Source of the DNA: an uncultured Desulfobacteraceae bacterium
GTDB taxonomy: Bacteria > Desulfobacterota > Desulfobacteria > Desulfobacterales > Desulfatirhabdiaceae
Assembly (NCBI GenBank): GCA_903953895.1
Contig: CAJBLH010000250.1
Location: forward strand, 1 to 64,000
Reading direction: 5' to 3'
Length of the DNA stretch: 64,000 nucleotides
Shown: one piece after another, positions 1,696 to 34,716 of the stretch
Position numbering within the stretch: the first letter of the stretch is position 1
Layout of the letters: the number at the start of each line of letters is the position of its first letter
Notes under the pieces: generated by a model
What the model was told of the DNA's origin: nothing
Databases searched by the model: none
Seen by the model: the letters and a program-made list of their open reading frames with translations, nothing else
Program-made: the position numbers and the translations under genes

Positions 1696-3009
1696 ATGAA
1701 CCCGCTTGCAGAACAATTGAACCAGGATATTGAAAAAGGAAGTTCCTGCGTTCTCGAAATGCTTTCCACCATTGGAAAAAACCTTTATTTCCCCAAGGGA
1801 ATTCTCAGCCAAAGCGCCGAAGCAAAGGAAAAAGCCTACAAACTGAATGCAACCATCGGAATCGCTACGGAAAACGGCCGTACCATGCATTTTCCATCGG
1901 TCATGAACGCAATCCACGGCATTCAGCCTGAAGCAGCCCTGACATATGCCCCATCCTTCGGGCTGCCGGCATTACGAAAACTCTGGCAGGAATCGCTTTT
2001 TCAGAAAAACCCATCCCTGCTGGGAAAGACCATCAGCCTTCCGGTGGTCACCAACGGAATCACCCATGCCATCAGCGTGTTTGCGGACGTATGGGTAGAG
2101 CCGGAAGACGTGGTGATTTTTCCGGACATGATGTGGGGCAATTATCATTTGATTCTGGATGTTCGAAAAGGCGCCAGACTGAAAACCTATCCCCTGTTTT
2201 CCGAAGCCGGAGGATTCAACCTGAAGGCGTTCGAAGAAACCGTCACAGCAGAAACCGCCCTTCGCAACAAGCTGATCGTGATGCTCAATTTCCCCAACAA
2301 CCCGACAGGGTACACAATTACGGAATCCGAAGGCAACCGAATCGCTGAAATTTTAACGCAAGCCGCCCAAAACGGGGCTCAGGTTCTGGCGGTAATGGAT
2401 GATGCCTATTTTGGACTGTTTTATGAAGAAGATACGCTCAAGGAGTCTCTCTTCGCCCGTCTGTGCGGAAAACACCCCCGGCTGATGGCCATCAAGCTGG
2501 ATGGTGCAACCAAGGAAAGTTTTGCCTGGGGGCTACGGGTGGGTTTTATCACCTATGGTGCCGCCCTCGCAGGAGACAGCCGCCCGTTTTACGAAGCGCT
2601 TGAAAAAAAGACCGCAGGAGCTGTCCGGGGGTCCATATCCAACGCATCTCATTTAAGCGAAACCCTGGTGCTAAAATCCATGCAGGATCAGAACAATCCC
2701 AATGAAAAACGGGAAAAATTCGAAATCCTCAAACGTAGGGCAAACCGCGTCAAATCGGTGCTTCAAGATCCCAAATATCAGGATGCCTGGCAGGCCTATC
2801 CATTTAACTCAGGCTATTTCATGTGTATCCGCCTGAAAACGGTCCATGCCGAAACCCTTCGGGTACACCTGCTGAACAACTATGGGGTCGGGCTCATTTC
2901 CATCGGATCGGAAAATCTGCGGGTAGCGTTTTCCTGTCTGGAAGAAGCCGATATCCCGCTTCTCTTCGATACGGTGCTTCAAGGTGTGAATGATCTCAGA
3001 GCAGCATAG
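1696..3009 (+). CDS. PLP-dependent class I/II aminotransferase
   Basis: A 437-residue fold-type I aminotransferase. The internal-aldimine lysine sits in KLDGATKESFAWGLRVGF at about residue 278, followed by the phosphate-anchoring arginine. LNFPNNPTGY (about 200) and the DDAYFGLFY strand (about 240) are the PLP Asn and Asp/Tyr sites. It transfers an amino group between an amino acid and a 2-oxo acid in the cytoplasm. The substrate cannot be read from sequence; the N-terminal extension and the NPTGYT region suggest an aspartate/aromatic-type enzyme. The ATG at 1696 is preferred over an in-frame ATG at 1681 because GGAGAG at 1683-1688 is well spaced for it. It stands alone, divergent from the LysM gene. 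Confidence 0.85.
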   Translation: MNPLAEQLNQDIEKGSSCVLEMLSTIGKNLYFPKGILSQSAEAKEKAYKLNATIGIATENGRTMHFPSVMNAIHGIQPEAALTYAPSFGLPALRKLWQESLFQKNPSLLGKTISLPVVTNGITHAISVFADVWVEPEDVVIFPDMMWGNYHLILDVRKGARLKTYPLFSEAGGFNLKAFEETVTAETALRNKLIVMLNFPNNPTGYTITESEGNRIAEILTQAAQNGAQVLAVMDDAYFGLFYEEDTLKESLFARLCGKHPRLMAIKLDGATKESFAWGLRVGFITYGAALAGDSRPFYEALEKKTAGAVRGSISNASHLSETLVLKSMQDQNNPNEKREKFEILKRRANRVKSVLQDPKYQDAWQAYPFNSGYFMCIRLKTVHAETLRVHLLNNYGVGLISIGSENLRVAFSCLEEADIPLLFDTVLQGVNDLRAA

Positions 3010-3094
3010 CCCCATAATCGGCCAACACGGGTTCAAGCGATGAACATGGGCGCAACATGTTGAATATCCTGTTCATCCTGTATATCCATGTAGA

Positions 3095-3841
3095 TTATTC
3101 TTTATACTCAACTTCAACCAAAAAAAGCCCCTGAGCCGGCGCCGTCGCGCCGGCCAGATTCCTGTCTTTCGAAAGCAGAATGCACTCCATATCCGCTGGT
3201 GACCTTTTCCCCATTCCAATACGAACCAGGGTACCGACAATGTTTCGTACCATATACCGCAGAAACCCATCACCCTGGATGACAATCCGCAATCGGCTGT
3301 TTCCGTTTTTGATGATTTCTGCCTGATGGATCGTTCTAATCGTGTGCGTGCGGGGACTGCCGATACCCTCAAACGCTTTAAAGTCATGGGTTCCCACCAG
3401 GCAAAAAAGGGATTCACGCATGGCGTTGAGATCAAGCGTTTTCTGTATGTGCCATGAAAAATGCCGTTCCACGACAGAGGGAATCGGGTGATTCAGTATC
3501 TGGTAGTGGTAGGTTTTGGTCAGAACATCATATCGCGCATGAAATCCGCCCGGCATTTCGCAGCAATCCCGAATGACGATATCGGCGGGAAGAAGGCCGT
3601 TAAGAGCCCTTAGAAATGTTTTCGGTGAAATTCGGGTGTCACAGTGAAAATTGGCCGCCTGGCCCAAGGCATGTACCCCGGCATCCGTTCGGCCGGATCC
3701 TTTCAAGATGACGGGCTGTCGGGTAATCAGCGTAAGAACCCGCTCGATTTCCGCCTGAATGGTGGGCTTTCCTACCTGACGCTGCCAGCCGAAATACCGG
3801 GTACCGTCATATTCTATAATGAGCTTAAAATTTCTCGACAT
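3095..3841 (-). CDS. truA: tRNA pseudouridine(38-40) synthase TruA
   Basis: A 248-residue TruA. It isomerises uridines 38, 39 and 40 in the tRNA anticodon arm to pseudouridine. The N terminus FKLIIEYDGTRYFGWQRQ and the catalytic-aspartate motif GSGRTDAGVHALGQ are both present, as are the HPIPSVVERHFSWH and RYMVRNIVGTLVRIG blocks. Length is normal for the family. The ATG at 3841 is chosen because the EYDGT strand follows it closely. A longer frame from 3901 would only overlap the selenoprotein gene. That gene ends ten bases upstream, so the two are probably cotranscribed. Confidence 0.93.
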   Translation of the reverse strand: MSRNFKLIIEYDGTRYFGWQRQVGKPTIQAEIERVLTLITRQPVILKGSGRTDAGVHALGQAANFHCDTRISPKTFLRALNGLLPADIVIRDCCEMPGGFHARYDVLTKTYHYQILNHPIPSVVERHFSWHIQKTLDLNAMRESLFCLVGTHDFKAFEGIGSPRTHTIRTIHQAEIIKNGNSRLRIVIQGDGFLRYMVRNIVGTLVRIGMGKRSPADMECILLSKDRNLAGATAPAQGLFLVEVEYKE

Positions 3842-3851
3842 TCCGCCGGCA

Positions 3852-4058
3852 TCACAGCCGATCGCACCGGGTATTGCCCAGTGCTTGCTCAAAGGCGTCA
3901 TCCATATCCTGCATAAATTTATCGAGAAGATATTGTCTGCCGCAGACCCTGCAGCTCAGCACAACAGATCGTCAGGTTTTCTTCAGGTCAAGTTTTTCTC
4001 CGCAACCGGTACATCGCAGTTTATCTGTATTCATCCATTCTTCTTTCTGATGTTTCAT
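3852..4058 (-). CDS. Dual-CXXC small selenoprotein with in-frame UGA
   Basis: Two open segments join in one frame if TGA at 3974-3972 is read as selenocysteine. The result is a 68-residue protein with a first pair (RCTGCGEKL), then LKKT-U-RSVVL, a second pair (SCRVCGRQY), and an acidic helical tail ending CDRL. This matches what I recall as the dual CXXC motif small (seleno)protein family, in which homologues carry Cys or Sec just before Arg. Just 3' of the UGA, a GCUGC/GCGGC stem at 3955-3939 encloses the loop AGGGUCU, close to the AGGUCU loop of the E. coli fdhF SECIS, at a suitable distance (21 nt). The first ATG is at 4058; one at 4034 is also possible. It lies between the FmdB-like gene and truA. 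A redox or metal-binding role is inference. A normal stop-codon search would miss it. Confidence 0.82.
3939..3955 (-). promoter_or_regulatory. Putative bacterial SECIS hairpin
   Basis: A five-pair stem (GCUGC with GCGGC, one G-U pair) closes a seven-base loop AGGGUCU, 21 nt after the in-frame UGA. The loop has the GG/GU core recognised by SelB in E. coli fdhF mRNA. It would direct Sec insertion at codon 29 of the small selenoprotein. Confidence 0.7.
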
Positions 4059-4117: not shown

Positions 4118-4609
4118 TTATAGATCATACAACGTATCGTCCCGAATCGGTGCTGTTTGCTTACCTGCGGCCCTTCCTTTTTTTCCGGACAGCAGAAATG
4201 GCTCTTCCTCCCCCAGAATATCCCCCATTTCCGATTCAATCTGTTCGGGATCTTCACCGCTTTCCATCCGCCGAAGTGCTTCCTGCATTCCTGGCCCCAG
4301 TTCCATGCCGGTCATGTTCGTAAGTTTACGCATCAAGTCGGCCGCCTGGCGAGGATCGTTCTCATTGATATTTTCAGCTTCGCCTGCCAGCATCTGCATG
4401 GCCTGCTCCATTTTGCTCTCATCAAAAGGAAGATCATCCATGCCGCTGTCGTCCTTTGCCTTTCCCGTAACGGCAAATGCCGACATCTGCCGGGTTAAGG
4501 GGTGTATTTGACATTTCGGGCATGGTGGTGTTCTGGAAGTGTTGATCGTTTTGGAAAAAAAATTAAACAGTGTATTACATCTCTTGCAATAAAACTCATA
4601 AATCGGCAT
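4118..4609 (-). CDS. FmdB-type zinc-ribbon protein
   Basis: A 163-residue protein. Its first about 45 residues form the FmdB/CxxC zinc ribbon: MPIYEFYCKRCNTLF followed by PPCPKCQIHPLTRQMS. The rest is acidic, low-complexity and helical (MEQAMQMLAGEAENI, a Met-rich stretch), with no known domain. FmdB ribbons are often called putative regulatory proteins, but their function is not established. The protein is longer than the usual 70-110 residues because of this tail. The ATG at 4609 is chosen over one at 4624 because AGGTGG stands six bases upstream and MPIYEF is the canonical family start. It lies 59 bp upstream of the selenoprotein, in the same orientation. Confidence 0.75.
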   Translation of the reverse strand: MPIYEFYCKRCNTLFNFFSKTINTSRTPPCPKCQIHPLTRQMSAFAVTGKAKDDSGMDDLPFDESKMEQAMQMLAGEAENINENDPRQAADLMRKLTNMTGMELGPGMQEALRRMESGEDPEQIESEMGDILGEEEPFLLSGKKGRAAGKQTAPIRDDTLYDL

Positions 4610-4639
4610 ACGCAACCACCTCACCTGCTGTATTACGCT

Positions 4640-14963: not shown

Positions 14964-17834
14964 TCACTTCAACATGTAATGATTCCATATCGTTGCGACG
15001 TCATCCCGAACGGACCGGAATCGGACATCAGAAACAACCGCCTGTTTTTCCTGAAGGCTTAATCGATGAACAACAGCCCGGTATGTCAAATAGGCTTCCT
15101 TAAGAAAGTGAGCCTGAAAATCCGCCAGAATTCCGGTTTCAATCAGGGTTTGAAGAAGTCGGACATTATCGGTCCACTGAGACAGGGCCGAATATTCATG
15201 AGACTTTGAAAGTACAAGGTATTGAACCAGGAATTCAATGTCGACAATTCCACCAACATCCTGCTTGATATCAAACTGCTGTGAGTGCTTGCCGGCATGT
15301 TCCTTACGCAGTCTCTCACGCATTTCCGCAACATCCCGGCGAAGGACTTCGGGCGCCCGAATTTTTGAGATCACCTTTCGCCGAATGGCCTGAAAACGCT
15401 CACAAACGCGGGTATCACCACCAATCGGCCTGGATCTTACCAACGCCTGATGTTCCCATGTCCAGGCTTTTTCGGTTTGATACTGTTCAAACGCATCCAC
15501 ATGGCTGACCAGAACACCAGAGCTGCCGCTGGGCCTCAGTCGCATATCCACTTCGTAGAGACTTCCGGCCGGTGTTTGTGCTGACAGCATATGAATGATC
15601 CGCTGTCCCAACCGGGAAAAAAACTGGGAATTGTCGATCGGGGTACAGCCATCGGTTTCGCCGGAATCTCCAGCATGGAGAAATACCAGATCCAGATCCG
15701 AGCCGTACCCCAGTTCGATTCCACCCAGTTTTCCATAAGCAATCATGGCAAATCCTCTACTGCAGGCAATACCTTCAAGCGAACTGGAAGGCGCTCCATG
15801 CTTAGAAACCAGGTGGTTCCAGCACAGCTCCAGTACATGATTCAATACCGTCTCGGCAATCTCTGTCAAATGATCACTGGTGCGCATGAGGGGAAGCATG
15901 CCGGTCACATCAGCCGCTGCCACACGCAGGACATTCACCTGTTTGAAGATACAAAGCTGCTCGATCTGGTATTCCTGATCCTGGGAAGGAACCAGCCGCA
16001 TTTTCTCTGCAAGTTCAGCCTCAAGTTCAGCCTTTCTAGGAGGAGTGTATAGAGTGCGCGTATCCAGAAGCTCATCCAGAATTGCCGGGTGCCGGGACAG
16101 CAGCGTGGTAATCATCGGACTGGCATGAACCAGCTTCACCAGGTGAATTCGGGCATGAGGGTTTTCCAGTAGCAGCGCCAGGTAGCTGGTTCGCCGCTCG
16201 ATAGCCTTCAGAATGTCCATGATCCGGCTTAAAGCCAGCTCCGGATGATCCAGGGAAAGAATTTCCTTCAAAAGATGGGGTATCAGGCGATCCAGTCGCT
16301 GCCGGCCTTCCCTGCTGAGCGCACGGGTGGCTGAATCCATACGATGACTGTTCAGTATCTCAAGCACCTTACCCGGATGCGGAAATCCGATTTTCTGAAG
16401 CGTTTTTTGATCCTGATCCCGGTCCGACGGGGTCAGCCAGACAGCGTTCAGAAGATTCTCAGTGGAGGCATCGGAAACAGCGGATTGATTTGGATGTGCG
16501 TTTTCCAGCAGGGTATTGAAATGCATATGCACCCGGGCCATGTGTTCAGACAATTCCTTAAGAAATACCTGACTGTCTGCAAAACCCATAGCCGCCCCAA
16601 GGCGGTCGCACCCTTTGGTATCGGCAGGAATCTGATGCGTCTGCTGATCAGAAAATTCCTGTAACCGGTGTTCCGTTCGACGTAAAAAAAAATATGCGTT
16701 ATGCAGATCATGATATACGTTCTGTGAAATAATCTGTTTTTGAACAAGCAGTCTCAGCACAGATAAAATGGATCGATCCTGAAGCTCTGGGTCAACTCCT
16801 CCCCGTATCAACTGGAATACCTGTCCGAAAAATTCTATTTCACGAATTCCGCCTGCACCCTGCTTGATATTGTTCTGCATCGATTTTCGGCTGATTTCAT
16901 GGATTATTTTCAATTTCATATCCCGCAGTGCATCAAAAACGCCGAAATCCAGATATCTGCGAAACACAAAGGGCTTAAGATTCAATAGCAGCCGGGAACC
17001 GGCTGCATAGTCACCCGCAGCCACCCTTGCCTTGATCCAGGCATATCGCTCCCATTCCCGACCCTGGCGAAGATAGTATTCCTCCATATTGTCAAAGCTC
17101 ATCACCAAAGGGCCATTTTCTCCAAATGGCCTTAAATTGCAGTCAACCCGAAATACAAACCCGACTGAAGTTGTCGTTGACAAAACAGCAATCATCCGCC
17201 GGCACAGACGGATAAAAAAATCCTCGTTGCTTACTTCAAGGGACCCTTTCACTGCAGATCCAGAAGCCGGATAAGCAAATATCAGATCGATATCCGATGA
17301 GAAATTCAGCTCTCCGGCGCCGAGCTTTCCCATTGCCAGCACCACCAGCCGCTGCGGCACTCCTGAAGCATCCACCGGTGTACCGTACTCCTGGCAAAGA
17401 TTTTGATGCAACACTGCCTCCACACAATTGAGACAGACATCCGCAAGAGAAGACAGTGCGTCCATGGTTTCCTGGAGATCCGCCCACCCAGCCAGATCCC
17501 GCCAGGCGATGCGCACCATTTCCCTTCGCCGGAAATGCCGCAGCGATTCGGCCAGAGCCGTTTCATTCAAATCATTCGGCAGATATTGTTGAAGTTTGGA
17601 CACATAGGCATCCTTCGAGTATGTTCCAAAAAGGTCTCCTCCCTGCACCAGGTTCTGAAGCATCTGTGGATAGCGGATACAGTTTTGGGCCACAAAGTCA
17701 CTAAACGCCAGAACCGGCCGAATGGAACCGGCAAAGCTGTCTTCAGTAAAGAAAAACCCCTGACGGCCGGCCGACTCTTGGAGCGTATCCCATTTGCGAC
17801 TGGCGTCAGCACTCATTATATCAGAAAGTTTCAT
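14964..17834 (-). CDS. glnE: Bifunctional glutamine synthetase adenylyltransferase/deadenylase
   Basis: GlnE of about 956 residues (975 in the longest frame). It adenylylates glutamine synthetase to switch it off in nitrogen excess and removes AMP when nitrogen is short, under PII control. Two nucleotidyltransferase domains are present: an N-terminal one with GKLGAGELNFSSDIDLIF (the de-adenylylating site) and a C-terminal one with GKLGGIELGYGSDLDLVF (adenylylating), each followed by a helical GlnD-like domain. The start is uncertain. A TTG at 17891 has an AAGGG ahead of it but lies inside the dsr terminator hairpin, and ATG 17879 is also possible. I prefer ATG 17834, beyond the hairpin. Confidence 0.9.
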   Translation of the reverse strand: MKLSDIMSADASRKWDTLQESAGRQGFFFTEDSFAGSIRPVLAFSDFVAQNCIRYPQMLQNLVQGGDLFGTYSKDAYVSKLQQYLPNDLNETALAESLRHFRRREMVRIAWRDLAGWADLQETMDALSSLADVCLNCVEAVLHQNLCQEYGTPVDASGVPQRLVVLAMGKLGAGELNFSSDIDLIFAYPASGSAVKGSLEVSNEDFFIRLCRRMIAVLSTTTSVGFVFRVDCNLRPFGENGPLVMSFDNMEEYYLRQGREWERYAWIKARVAAGDYAAGSRLLLNLKPFVFRRYLDFGVFDALRDMKLKIIHEISRKSMQNNIKQGAGGIREIEFFGQVFQLIRGGVDPELQDRSILSVLRLLVQKQIISQNVYHDLHNAYFFLRRTEHRLQEFSDQQTHQIPADTKGCDRLGAAMGFADSQVFLKELSEHMARVHMHFNTLLENAHPNQSAVSDASTENLLNAVWLTPSDRDQDQKTLQKIGFPHPGKVLEILNSHRMDSATRALSREGRQRLDRLIPHLLKEILSLDHPELALSRIMDILKAIERRTSYLALLLENPHARIHLVKLVHASPMITTLLSRHPAILDELLDTRTLYTPPRKAELEAELAEKMRLVPSQDQEYQIEQLCIFKQVNVLRVAAADVTGMLPLMRTSDHLTEIAETVLNHVLELCWNHLVSKHGAPSSSLEGIACSRGFAMIAYGKLGGIELGYGSDLDLVFLHAGDSGETDGCTPIDNSQFFSRLGQRIIHMLSAQTPAGSLYEVDMRLRPSGSSGVLVSHVDAFEQYQTEKAWTWEHQALVRSRPIGGDTRVCERFQAIRRKVISKIRAPEVLRRDVAEMRERLRKEHAGKHSQQFDIKQDVGGIVDIEFLVQYLVLSKSHEYSALSQWTDNVRLLQTLIETGILADFQAHFLKEAYLTYRAVVHRLSLQEKQAVVSDVRFRSVRDDVATIWNHYMLK

Positions 17835-32803: not shown

Positions 32804-34716
32804 TGGAAAAAAAGCTCCTGCTTGTTGATGATGAAGAAGGTATTCGAACGGTACTGGGTATTTCATTGATGGACATGGGGTATGCGGTACTGACCGCGGA
32901 AAACGGTCTGGATGCACTGACAATATTCAGGGCTGAAAAACCTTCGATTGTTCTGACCGATATCAAAATGCCGGCAATGGACGGCATCCAACTGCTTCAA
33001 ACTATCAAATCTGAAAATCCAGACACTGAAGTCATCATGATCACCGGCCATGGCGACATGGACCTGGCAATCAAAAGCCTGAAACTCAACGCCACAGATT
33101 TTGTCACCAAACCCATTCACGACGACATTCTTGAAATCGCACTCAATCGGGCCACTGAACGAATTTTCATGCGCGAGCAACTCAGACGCCATACCGAAAA
33201 TCTCGAAAAACTGGTGGAGGAGAAATCCGCCCGCCTGGTTCAACTGGAGAGACTGACCGCCATCGATCAGGCGGTTGAAGGTATGTCGCTGGCCAGACGA
33301 CTGATTGCCGACGACATCGGTCAGAACTTCGGCAATTTCAATGAAATGCCCTGTTTCGTATCGATTCATAATCGCGACTTGAAAATCGTTGCCGCCAACC
33401 ATCTCTATCGTACACGGCTGTCAAGCACAATCGGCGATTCCAGTTGGTCCATCTACACCGATGCCGATACCACACCCGACACTTGTCCGGTCGGGCTGAC
33501 TTTTTCTTCCGGCACAGGACAGCGTTTCAATAAGCAGATTCAATTCGCAGACGGCACGCAATCGCCGGTCATGGTGCATACCGCACCGATCCGAAACAGC
33601 ACCGGAACCATTGATCTCGTAATCGAGATTTCAGCCGATATTTCGGAAATCAAGCGGCTCCAGGATGAGTTGAATACCACTCAGCGGAAATATCAACAGC
33701 TCTTCGATGAATCACCATGCTATATTACGGTTCAGGATCGGCAATTTCAGATGATTGCCGCCAATCGCCGATTCAAAGATGATTTCGGTGATAACATCGC
33801 CCAGTGCTTCCGGGTGTATCGCCAGCGCACCGAGCCTTGTCTCAACTGTCCGGTTGCCAAAACCTTCGAGGATGGACAGCCCCACCAGAGCGAGATGGTC
33901 GTGACATCGAAAATCGGGGAACAGATGCATCTGCTGATCGGTACTGCGCCTTTATTCACTGCAGATGGCCACATCAACCAGGTCATGGAATTATCCACCA
34001 ACATTACCCAAATCCGTCAACTTCAGGAAAATCTATCGGCTCTGGGGCTGATGATGAGTTCCATGTCCCACGCGGTCAAAGGTATGCTGACCGCTCTGGA
34101 CGGCGGTATCTATCGAATACAGTCCGGTCTGAAAAAACAGGATTCAACGTTGATACAAGATGGACTGGATGATGTTCGAATTACGGCGGATCGCATCCGC
34201 CATGCCGTCTTGGATATCCTGTACTATGCCAAGGAGCGCGATATTCGGCCGGAACCAACGGAAGTCCAAAACATGGTGGATGATGTGATTCAGATCATCG
34301 AGCCTAAACTGGCCGGCAGATCCATTCAGTGGGCCTGCCGCGTGGAACCTTCTTTGGGCTGCTTCGTCGTGGATCGGGGGGCCATGAGAACAGCACTGAT
34401 CAATATTCTTGAAAATGCGGTCGAAGCATGTCTCGAAAATGTGCAAAGACCCTCTCATACCATTGACTTTCATGTTAAAAAAGTCAAAAATCATATCTCT
34501 TTTGAAATTCGAGATACAGGTATCGGCATGAGTTCAGAAATTCAAGATAAAGTTTTCACCCTCTTTTTTTCGTCCAAAGGCCAGAGAGGCACTGGCCTCG
34601 GCCTGTTCATCGCCAAAAAAGTGATCGATCAGCATCAAGGAACTATCCGATTTCAATCTGAAAAAGGCAAGGGCGCCACATTCTGGATCGATATCCCTAT
34701 CAATACAAAACCTTGA
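32803..34716 (+). CDS. REC-PAS-PAS histidine kinase
   Basis: A 637-residue cytoplasmic hybrid. The receiver is at 1-120 (LLLVDDEEG, Asp53 in IVLTDIKMP, Lys103 in TKPI). A coiled coil follows, then two PAS-like domains (about 170-285 and 300-410), an atypical dimerisation helix with MMSSMSHAVKGMLTALDGG (about 424), and an ATPase domain ending RGTGLGLFIAKKVIDQH. Both PAS domains carry a CPV signature (DTCPVGLTFSSG; CLNCPVAKTFEDG), which suggests a thiol, metal or redox site. No membrane helix is seen. TGATG coupling to the receiver gene makes that receiver a likely partner. Confidence 0.88.
   Translation: MEKKLLLVDDEEGIRTVLGISLMDMGYAVLTAENGLDALTIFRAEKPSIVLTDIKMPAMDGIQLLQTIKSENPDTEVIMITGHGDMDLAIKSLKLNATDFVTKPIHDDILEIALNRATERIFMREQLRRHTENLEKLVEEKSARLVQLERLTAIDQAVEGMSLARRLIADDIGQNFGNFNEMPCFVSIHNRDLKIVAANHLYRTRLSSTIGDSSWSIYTDADTTPDTCPVGLTFSSGTGQRFNKQIQFADGTQSPVMVHTAPIRNSTGTIDLVIEISADISEIKRLQDELNTTQRKYQQLFDESPCYITVQDRQFQMIAANRRFKDDFGDNIAQCFRVYRQRTEPCLNCPVAKTFEDGQPHQSEMVVTSKIGEQMHLLIGTAPLFTADGHINQVMELSTNITQIRQLQENLSALGLMMSSMSHAVKGMLTALDGGIYRIQSGLKKQDSTLIQDGLDDVRITADRIRHAVLDILYYAKERDIRPEPTEVQNMVDDVIQIIEPKLAGRSIQWACRVEPSLGCFVVDRGAMRTALINILENAVEACLENVQRPSHTIDFHVKKVKNHISFEIRDTGIGMSSEIQDKVFTLFFSSKGQRGTGLGLFIAKKVIDQHQGTIRFQSEKGKGATFWIDIPINTKP

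Follow-up and report, generated by a model that had tools for sequence, protein, structure and literature searches.

A small dual-CXXC protein with a probable selenocysteine at an in-frame UGA: a Desulfobacteraceae member of the NF041197/OS_HP3 family

An interrupted reading frame

Is the TGA that interrupts a short frame on the minus strand of this Desulfobacteraceae DNA a stop codon, or is it read as selenocysteine (Sec)? The frame, 4058-3852, lies in the window (the whole stretch of 64,000 nucleotides that was analysed) and, on translation of its open reading frame, holds exactly one internal TGA, at 3974-3972; its terminal codon is also TGA. The internal TGA is flanked by CTGC (C16, C19) and CRVC (C36, C39; numbering from a start at 4058), and the read-through translation from 4058 is MKHQKEEWMNTDKLRCTGCGEKLDLKKTURSVVLSCRVCGRQYLLDKFMQDMDDAFEQALGNTRCDRL. 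A single in-frame TGA between two CXXC pairs is what an earlier note on this DNA had described, and translation bears it out.

The answer argued for below is that Sec is very probably inserted at the UGA and that the product belongs to the NF041197/OS_HP3 family (a probability of about 0.93, resting on sequence comparisons). The suggestion of Sec insertion made in the earlier note draws support from Sec- and Cys-containing homologues, a conserved SECIS-like hairpin, the sel genes of the host genome and the match to NF041197. A short, stop-interrupted frame of the kind that is lost by gene callers can thus be a real and widespread gene. Coordinates of the features are collected in Table 1.

Table 1. 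Features of the selenoprotein locus, in positions of the window
Feature	Position	Strand	Details and basis
Putative dual-CXXC selenoprotein CDS	3852..4034	-	60 aa, Sec21, stop TGA 3854-3852; NF041197 match and conserved start
UGA probably read as selenocysteine	3972..3974	-	71 homologues have their UGA at this column; 20 others have Cys there
CXXC pair 1 (CTGC), first Cys codon	4011..4013	-	second Cys 4004-4002; translation, alignment
CXXC pair 2 (CRVC)	3942..3953	-	coded inside the hairpin; translation, TGC codon bias
Putative SECIS hairpin core	3939..3955	-	stem 3955-3951 with 3943-3939, loop 3950-3944 (AGGGUCU); fold, covariation, codon bias
truA, tRNA pseudouridine(38-40) synthase	3095..3841	-	TIGR00071, 182.5 bits; adjoins the selenoprotein gene

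Family membership and the published record

The read-through product matches the NCBIfam model NF041197.2 over its entire length (profile positions 1-53 of 53) with 65.8 bits, the cut-off being 40, and both the translation and the alignment of homologues show the layout of that family, in which Sec or Cys lies between the two CXXC pairs. The earlier note had mentioned that a family of dual-CXXC small (seleno)proteins exists; NF041197 is that family, and the protein scores above its cut-off. NF041197.2 (CxxC_Se_CxxC, "dual CXXC motif small (seleno)protein") is the hypothetical protein OS_HP3 in the selenoprotein catalogue of a 2026 review (PMC13188914), and OS_HP3 is also counted among the selenoproteins in PMC9312934. 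It was described from the Olavius algarvensis endosymbiont, according to the places in PMC13188914 and PMC9312934 that cite Zhang and Gladyshev 2007. The gene is therefore a new, ordinary member of an already published selenoprotein family, and its existence is not news. It shares with NF041197/OS_HP3 a full-length match, the two CXXC pairs, the one Sec between them and a basic residue at -2; the one difference found is that this residue is K (KxU) where the family motif is RxU.

A second form, which PMC13188914 takes from the deep-Sep paper (PMC12013277), is entered there as "hypothetical protein DW, NF041197, GxU". It has the same CXXC, Sec, CXXC layout but differs in its GxU motif and in its C-terminus, and is represented here by a paralogous sub-form, with Sec in four loci (L075, L077, L078 and L080) and Cys in two (L076 and L125), that frequently occurs as a second gene in genomes with an RxU copy. 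This GxU form scores near or under the NF041197 cut-off and might merit a model of its own. According to the deep-Sep paper (PMC12013277), its new families, DW among them, show Sec/Cys pairs; it also reports having missed the OS_HP3 gene of Desulfosarcina widdelii PP31.

Selenocysteine and cysteine at the same column

Most genomes of the order possess the family (69 of 94), and in almost all of them the matched region contains a single TGA. For the phylum the count is 112 of 395 genomes. The position of the UGA is constant: in the window and in 71 homologues from the order it always lies seven codons 5' of the first Cys of the second CXXC. In an alignment of 62 sequences no column is invariant except the Sec column and those of the four CXXC cysteines, an invariance that is partly by construction, since the homologous genes of the order were located with a pattern requiring two CXXC pairs and a UGA; of the family matches fetched from the order, all but two contain that pattern. 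(A scan of named genomes with a narrower alignment returned eight loci, all of them in Desulfobacterales.)

Elsewhere in the phylum, 20 matches that contain no stop and score above the cut-off were fetched, and every one has Cys at the Sec column. A search for homologues with Cys or Sec at this position, which the earlier note had put forward as the way to check its reading, thus yields 71 Sec genes in the order and 20 Cys genes outside it. The family illustrates Sec/Cys exchange clearly: a single genus, g121, has both forms (Sec in genome G132, locus L113; Cys in G380, locus L104). Two weaker stop-free matches occur within the order: one (L076) is the Cys form of the GxU sub-form already mentioned, and the other (L081) lacks Cys at the Sec column and was set aside as probably an unrelated zinc ribbon. 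A C-terminal Cys (CDRL, CNRL) is common among the homologues; it is not universal, which makes a fixed Sec-Cys pair doubtful.

One locus, L126 in genome G451, holds at 2850-3160 a copy without the N-terminal half and the UGA; other copies in the same genus are intact and have the UGA, and this copy looks like gene decay.

Start codon and coding character downstream of the UGA

The start codon is probably ATG 4034, giving a protein of about 60 residues with Sec at position 21. This ATG (4034-4032) is common to all seven members of the genus, the genome of the window included, and two of the seven have an in-frame stop a few codons 5' of it; the ATG at 4058 is not common to the seven. It is the sharing of the one start, the upstream stops and the lack of sharing of the other that favour 4034. 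The earlier note had placed Sec at residue 29 of 68, having taken the first possible start, 4058: Sec insertion itself holds up, and the numbering should probably be changed to Sec21 of 60.

Within the genus, codon differences 3' of the UGA fall mostly in third positions (27 of 52 variable columns; pN/pS 0.25). By this measure the codons downstream of the UGA are under purifying selection and hence protein-coding.

The hairpin downstream of the UGA

Numbered from the U of the UGA as 1, the hairpin reads GCUGC (nt 20-24), AGGGUCU (nt 25-31), GCGGC (nt 32-36). Recounting confirms that the loop begins after 21 intervening nucleotides, as had been noted earlier. The fold has an energy of -10.6 kcal/mol in a 22-nt context, with A25-U31 and G26-C30 lengthening the stem to 7 bp. 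The SECIS of E. coli fdhF has a 6-nt loop, AGGUCU, that begins after 17 nt. The two hairpins are alike in being intragenic, 3' of the UGA and furnished with a loop of the AGG-UCU type; they differ in that the loop here has 7 nt (AGGGUCU) and begins after 21. A check of the hairpin as a bacterial SECIS, also proposed in the earlier note, was made against the bSECIS constraints summarised in PMC13188914, and the hairpin conforms to them.

Taken alone, the hairpin is weak evidence of Sec, because the window contains 347 comparable single-TGA frame pairs, 12 of which pass the same test, and the z-score of the 45-nt minimum free energy is only -1.45; the homologues move the case far past chance. 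(Two other single-TGA frames of the window, 33795-34283 on the plus strand and 16369-16545 on the minus strand, have Cys near the TGA and pass the crude hairpin test; they most likely do so by chance, at this background rate of 12/347.) Searched against Rfam, the 500 bases surrounding the gene gave nothing beyond chance snoRNA matches.

Comparison of 72 genes indicates that the hairpin is under selection as RNA and that its outer pairs covary. Pairs 20-36 and 21-35 are formed in 86%, as against 67% with shuffled partners, and none of 10,000 shuffles (which ignore kinship among the sequences) equals this value. Simple inheritance is an unlikely cause of the pairing, because several independent pair types are seen: pair 20-36 is found as G-C, T-A, C-G, A-T and G-T. 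Where position 36 is the mere third base of a Gly codon, pairing still reaches 95% against 64% (0 of 10,000 shuffles). Codon choice is biased as well: Arg at the loop is coded AGG in 46 of 53 cases, compared with 49 of 350 for the other Arg codons of the same genes (p = 2e-26), and TGC accounts for 140 of the 144 Cys codons at the two hairpin positions (p = 7e-20).

A hairpin at or below -7.5 kcal/mol is found in 50 of 80 Sec genes and in none of 22 Cys genes (the 20 fetched stop-free matches and two Cys genes of the GxU form). To go with the UGA and to be lost with the Cys codon is, on this comparison, the behaviour expected of a SECIS.

Selenocysteine machinery and the proposed decoding

The genome to which the window belongs has selA (596.8 bits), selB (382.4 bits), tRNA-Sec (selC; 75.5 bits, over the gathering score) and two selD genes, so that all four of the genes that the earlier note had named for a check are present. 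Each selD (L082 on contig C153, L083 on contig C184) has one internal TGA; the selenophosphate synthetase of this genome is probably itself a selenoprotein, in two copies. Whether a genome has the Sec or the Cys form cannot be told from selA, because all 75 genomes tested, of both kinds, possess it.

In the proposed decoding, SelB carrying Sec-tRNA-Sec would recognise the hairpin, whose stem starts with the 17th and whose loop starts with the 22nd base after the UGA; decoding of UGA 3974-3972 as selenocysteine would then yield MNTDKLRCTGCGEKLDLKKT-U-RSVVLSCRVCGRQYLLDKFMQDMDDAFEQALGNTRCDRL.

The alternative, that the UGA is an ordinary stop and the frame two short ORFs or a decaying gene whose downstream part is open by chance, is hardly credible. 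It can call on the rate at which the hairpin test is passed after other TGA codons of the window (12/347) and on the truncated relative in L126. It leaves unexplained that the UGA and the downstream frame are kept across the order, that the downstream codons are under purifying selection and that Cys replaces the UGA in homologues.

A possible zinc ribbon presenting a selenol

Most likely the two CXXC pairs form a zinc ribbon around a single zinc ion. Sec would then lie in the short stretch that links the knuckles, and this residue (Cys in other homologues) may supply the reactive selenol or thiol with which the protein carries out redox chemistry or handles metals. Judged from sequence, the likeliest function is that of a zinc-ribbon scaffold carrying a redox selenol; for the redox role of Sec, taken by itself, the odds are about even. 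The best match among solved structures is YfgJ (PDB 2jrp, deposited as a putative cytoplasmic protein), which is weak at E = 8e-6 and has Cys aligned to the Sec column; HypA and the zinc ribbons of RNA polymerases (RPA12) give still weaker profile matches. The likeness to the YfgJ zinc-ribbon proteins (PDB 2jrp, 2jne) lies in this profile match and in the Cys at the Sec column; their second knuckle differs (CQNGHG there, as against CRSCG), and membership in that group is not claimed. Tentatively, and with less than even confidence, we suggest that in the family as a whole a zinc ribbon displays a selenol or thiol between its two knuckles, possibly where its β-hairpin turns; the protein would be a zinc-ribbon-scaffolded selenoenzyme or a selenium/metal relay, unlike selenoproteins of the thioredoxin fold, with a partner not yet described.

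Another reading of the same layout keeps Sec insertion but makes Sec mainly a metal ligand, which would either add a fifth chalcogen to the coordination or contribute to a site that binds Ni, Cu, Hg or Se transiently; the protein would then be a metal or selenium carrier in place of a redox enzyme. The flanking of Sec by four invariant cysteines is consistent with this, as is the appearance among the weak structural matches of the metallochaperone HypA and of YfgJ with Cys at the aligned column. Against it, a tetrahedral site is already complete with the two CXXC pairs, and no conserved metal-handling neighbour was recognised in the loci inspected; we consider it unlikely, and less so than the next proposal, which concerns the adjoining gene. 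In the window truA begins 10 nt past the selenoprotein stop and is probably co-transcribed with the selenoprotein gene, and among 66 loci of the order truA is directly next in 32 and one gene further in 13. A protein acting with TruA in tRNA modification would account for such proximity, and yet in 38 loci from outside the order the gene has other neighbours, and no truA occurs within roughly 3 kb of it. Confinement of the linkage to the order makes TruA an improbable functional partner; slow change of gene order within one order would explain it, and is probably its cause.

Other neighbours of the gene

The gene that intervenes between the selenoprotein gene and truA in those 13 loci resembles a permease of the AEC family, and argJ-like and rluB-like genes are common on the opposite side in the order (all named by eye from sequence). 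Directly upstream in the window, at 4118-4624 on the minus strand, is a zinc-ribbon protein of the FmdB family (TIGR02605) with CXXC pairs of its own; it was considered as a fixed neighbour and rejected, adjoining the selenoprotein gene only within the genus and its family. In some Cys-form genomes (L100, L103) the gene follows a pyrE-like gene and precedes a PilZ-domain-like one, these too being named by eye.
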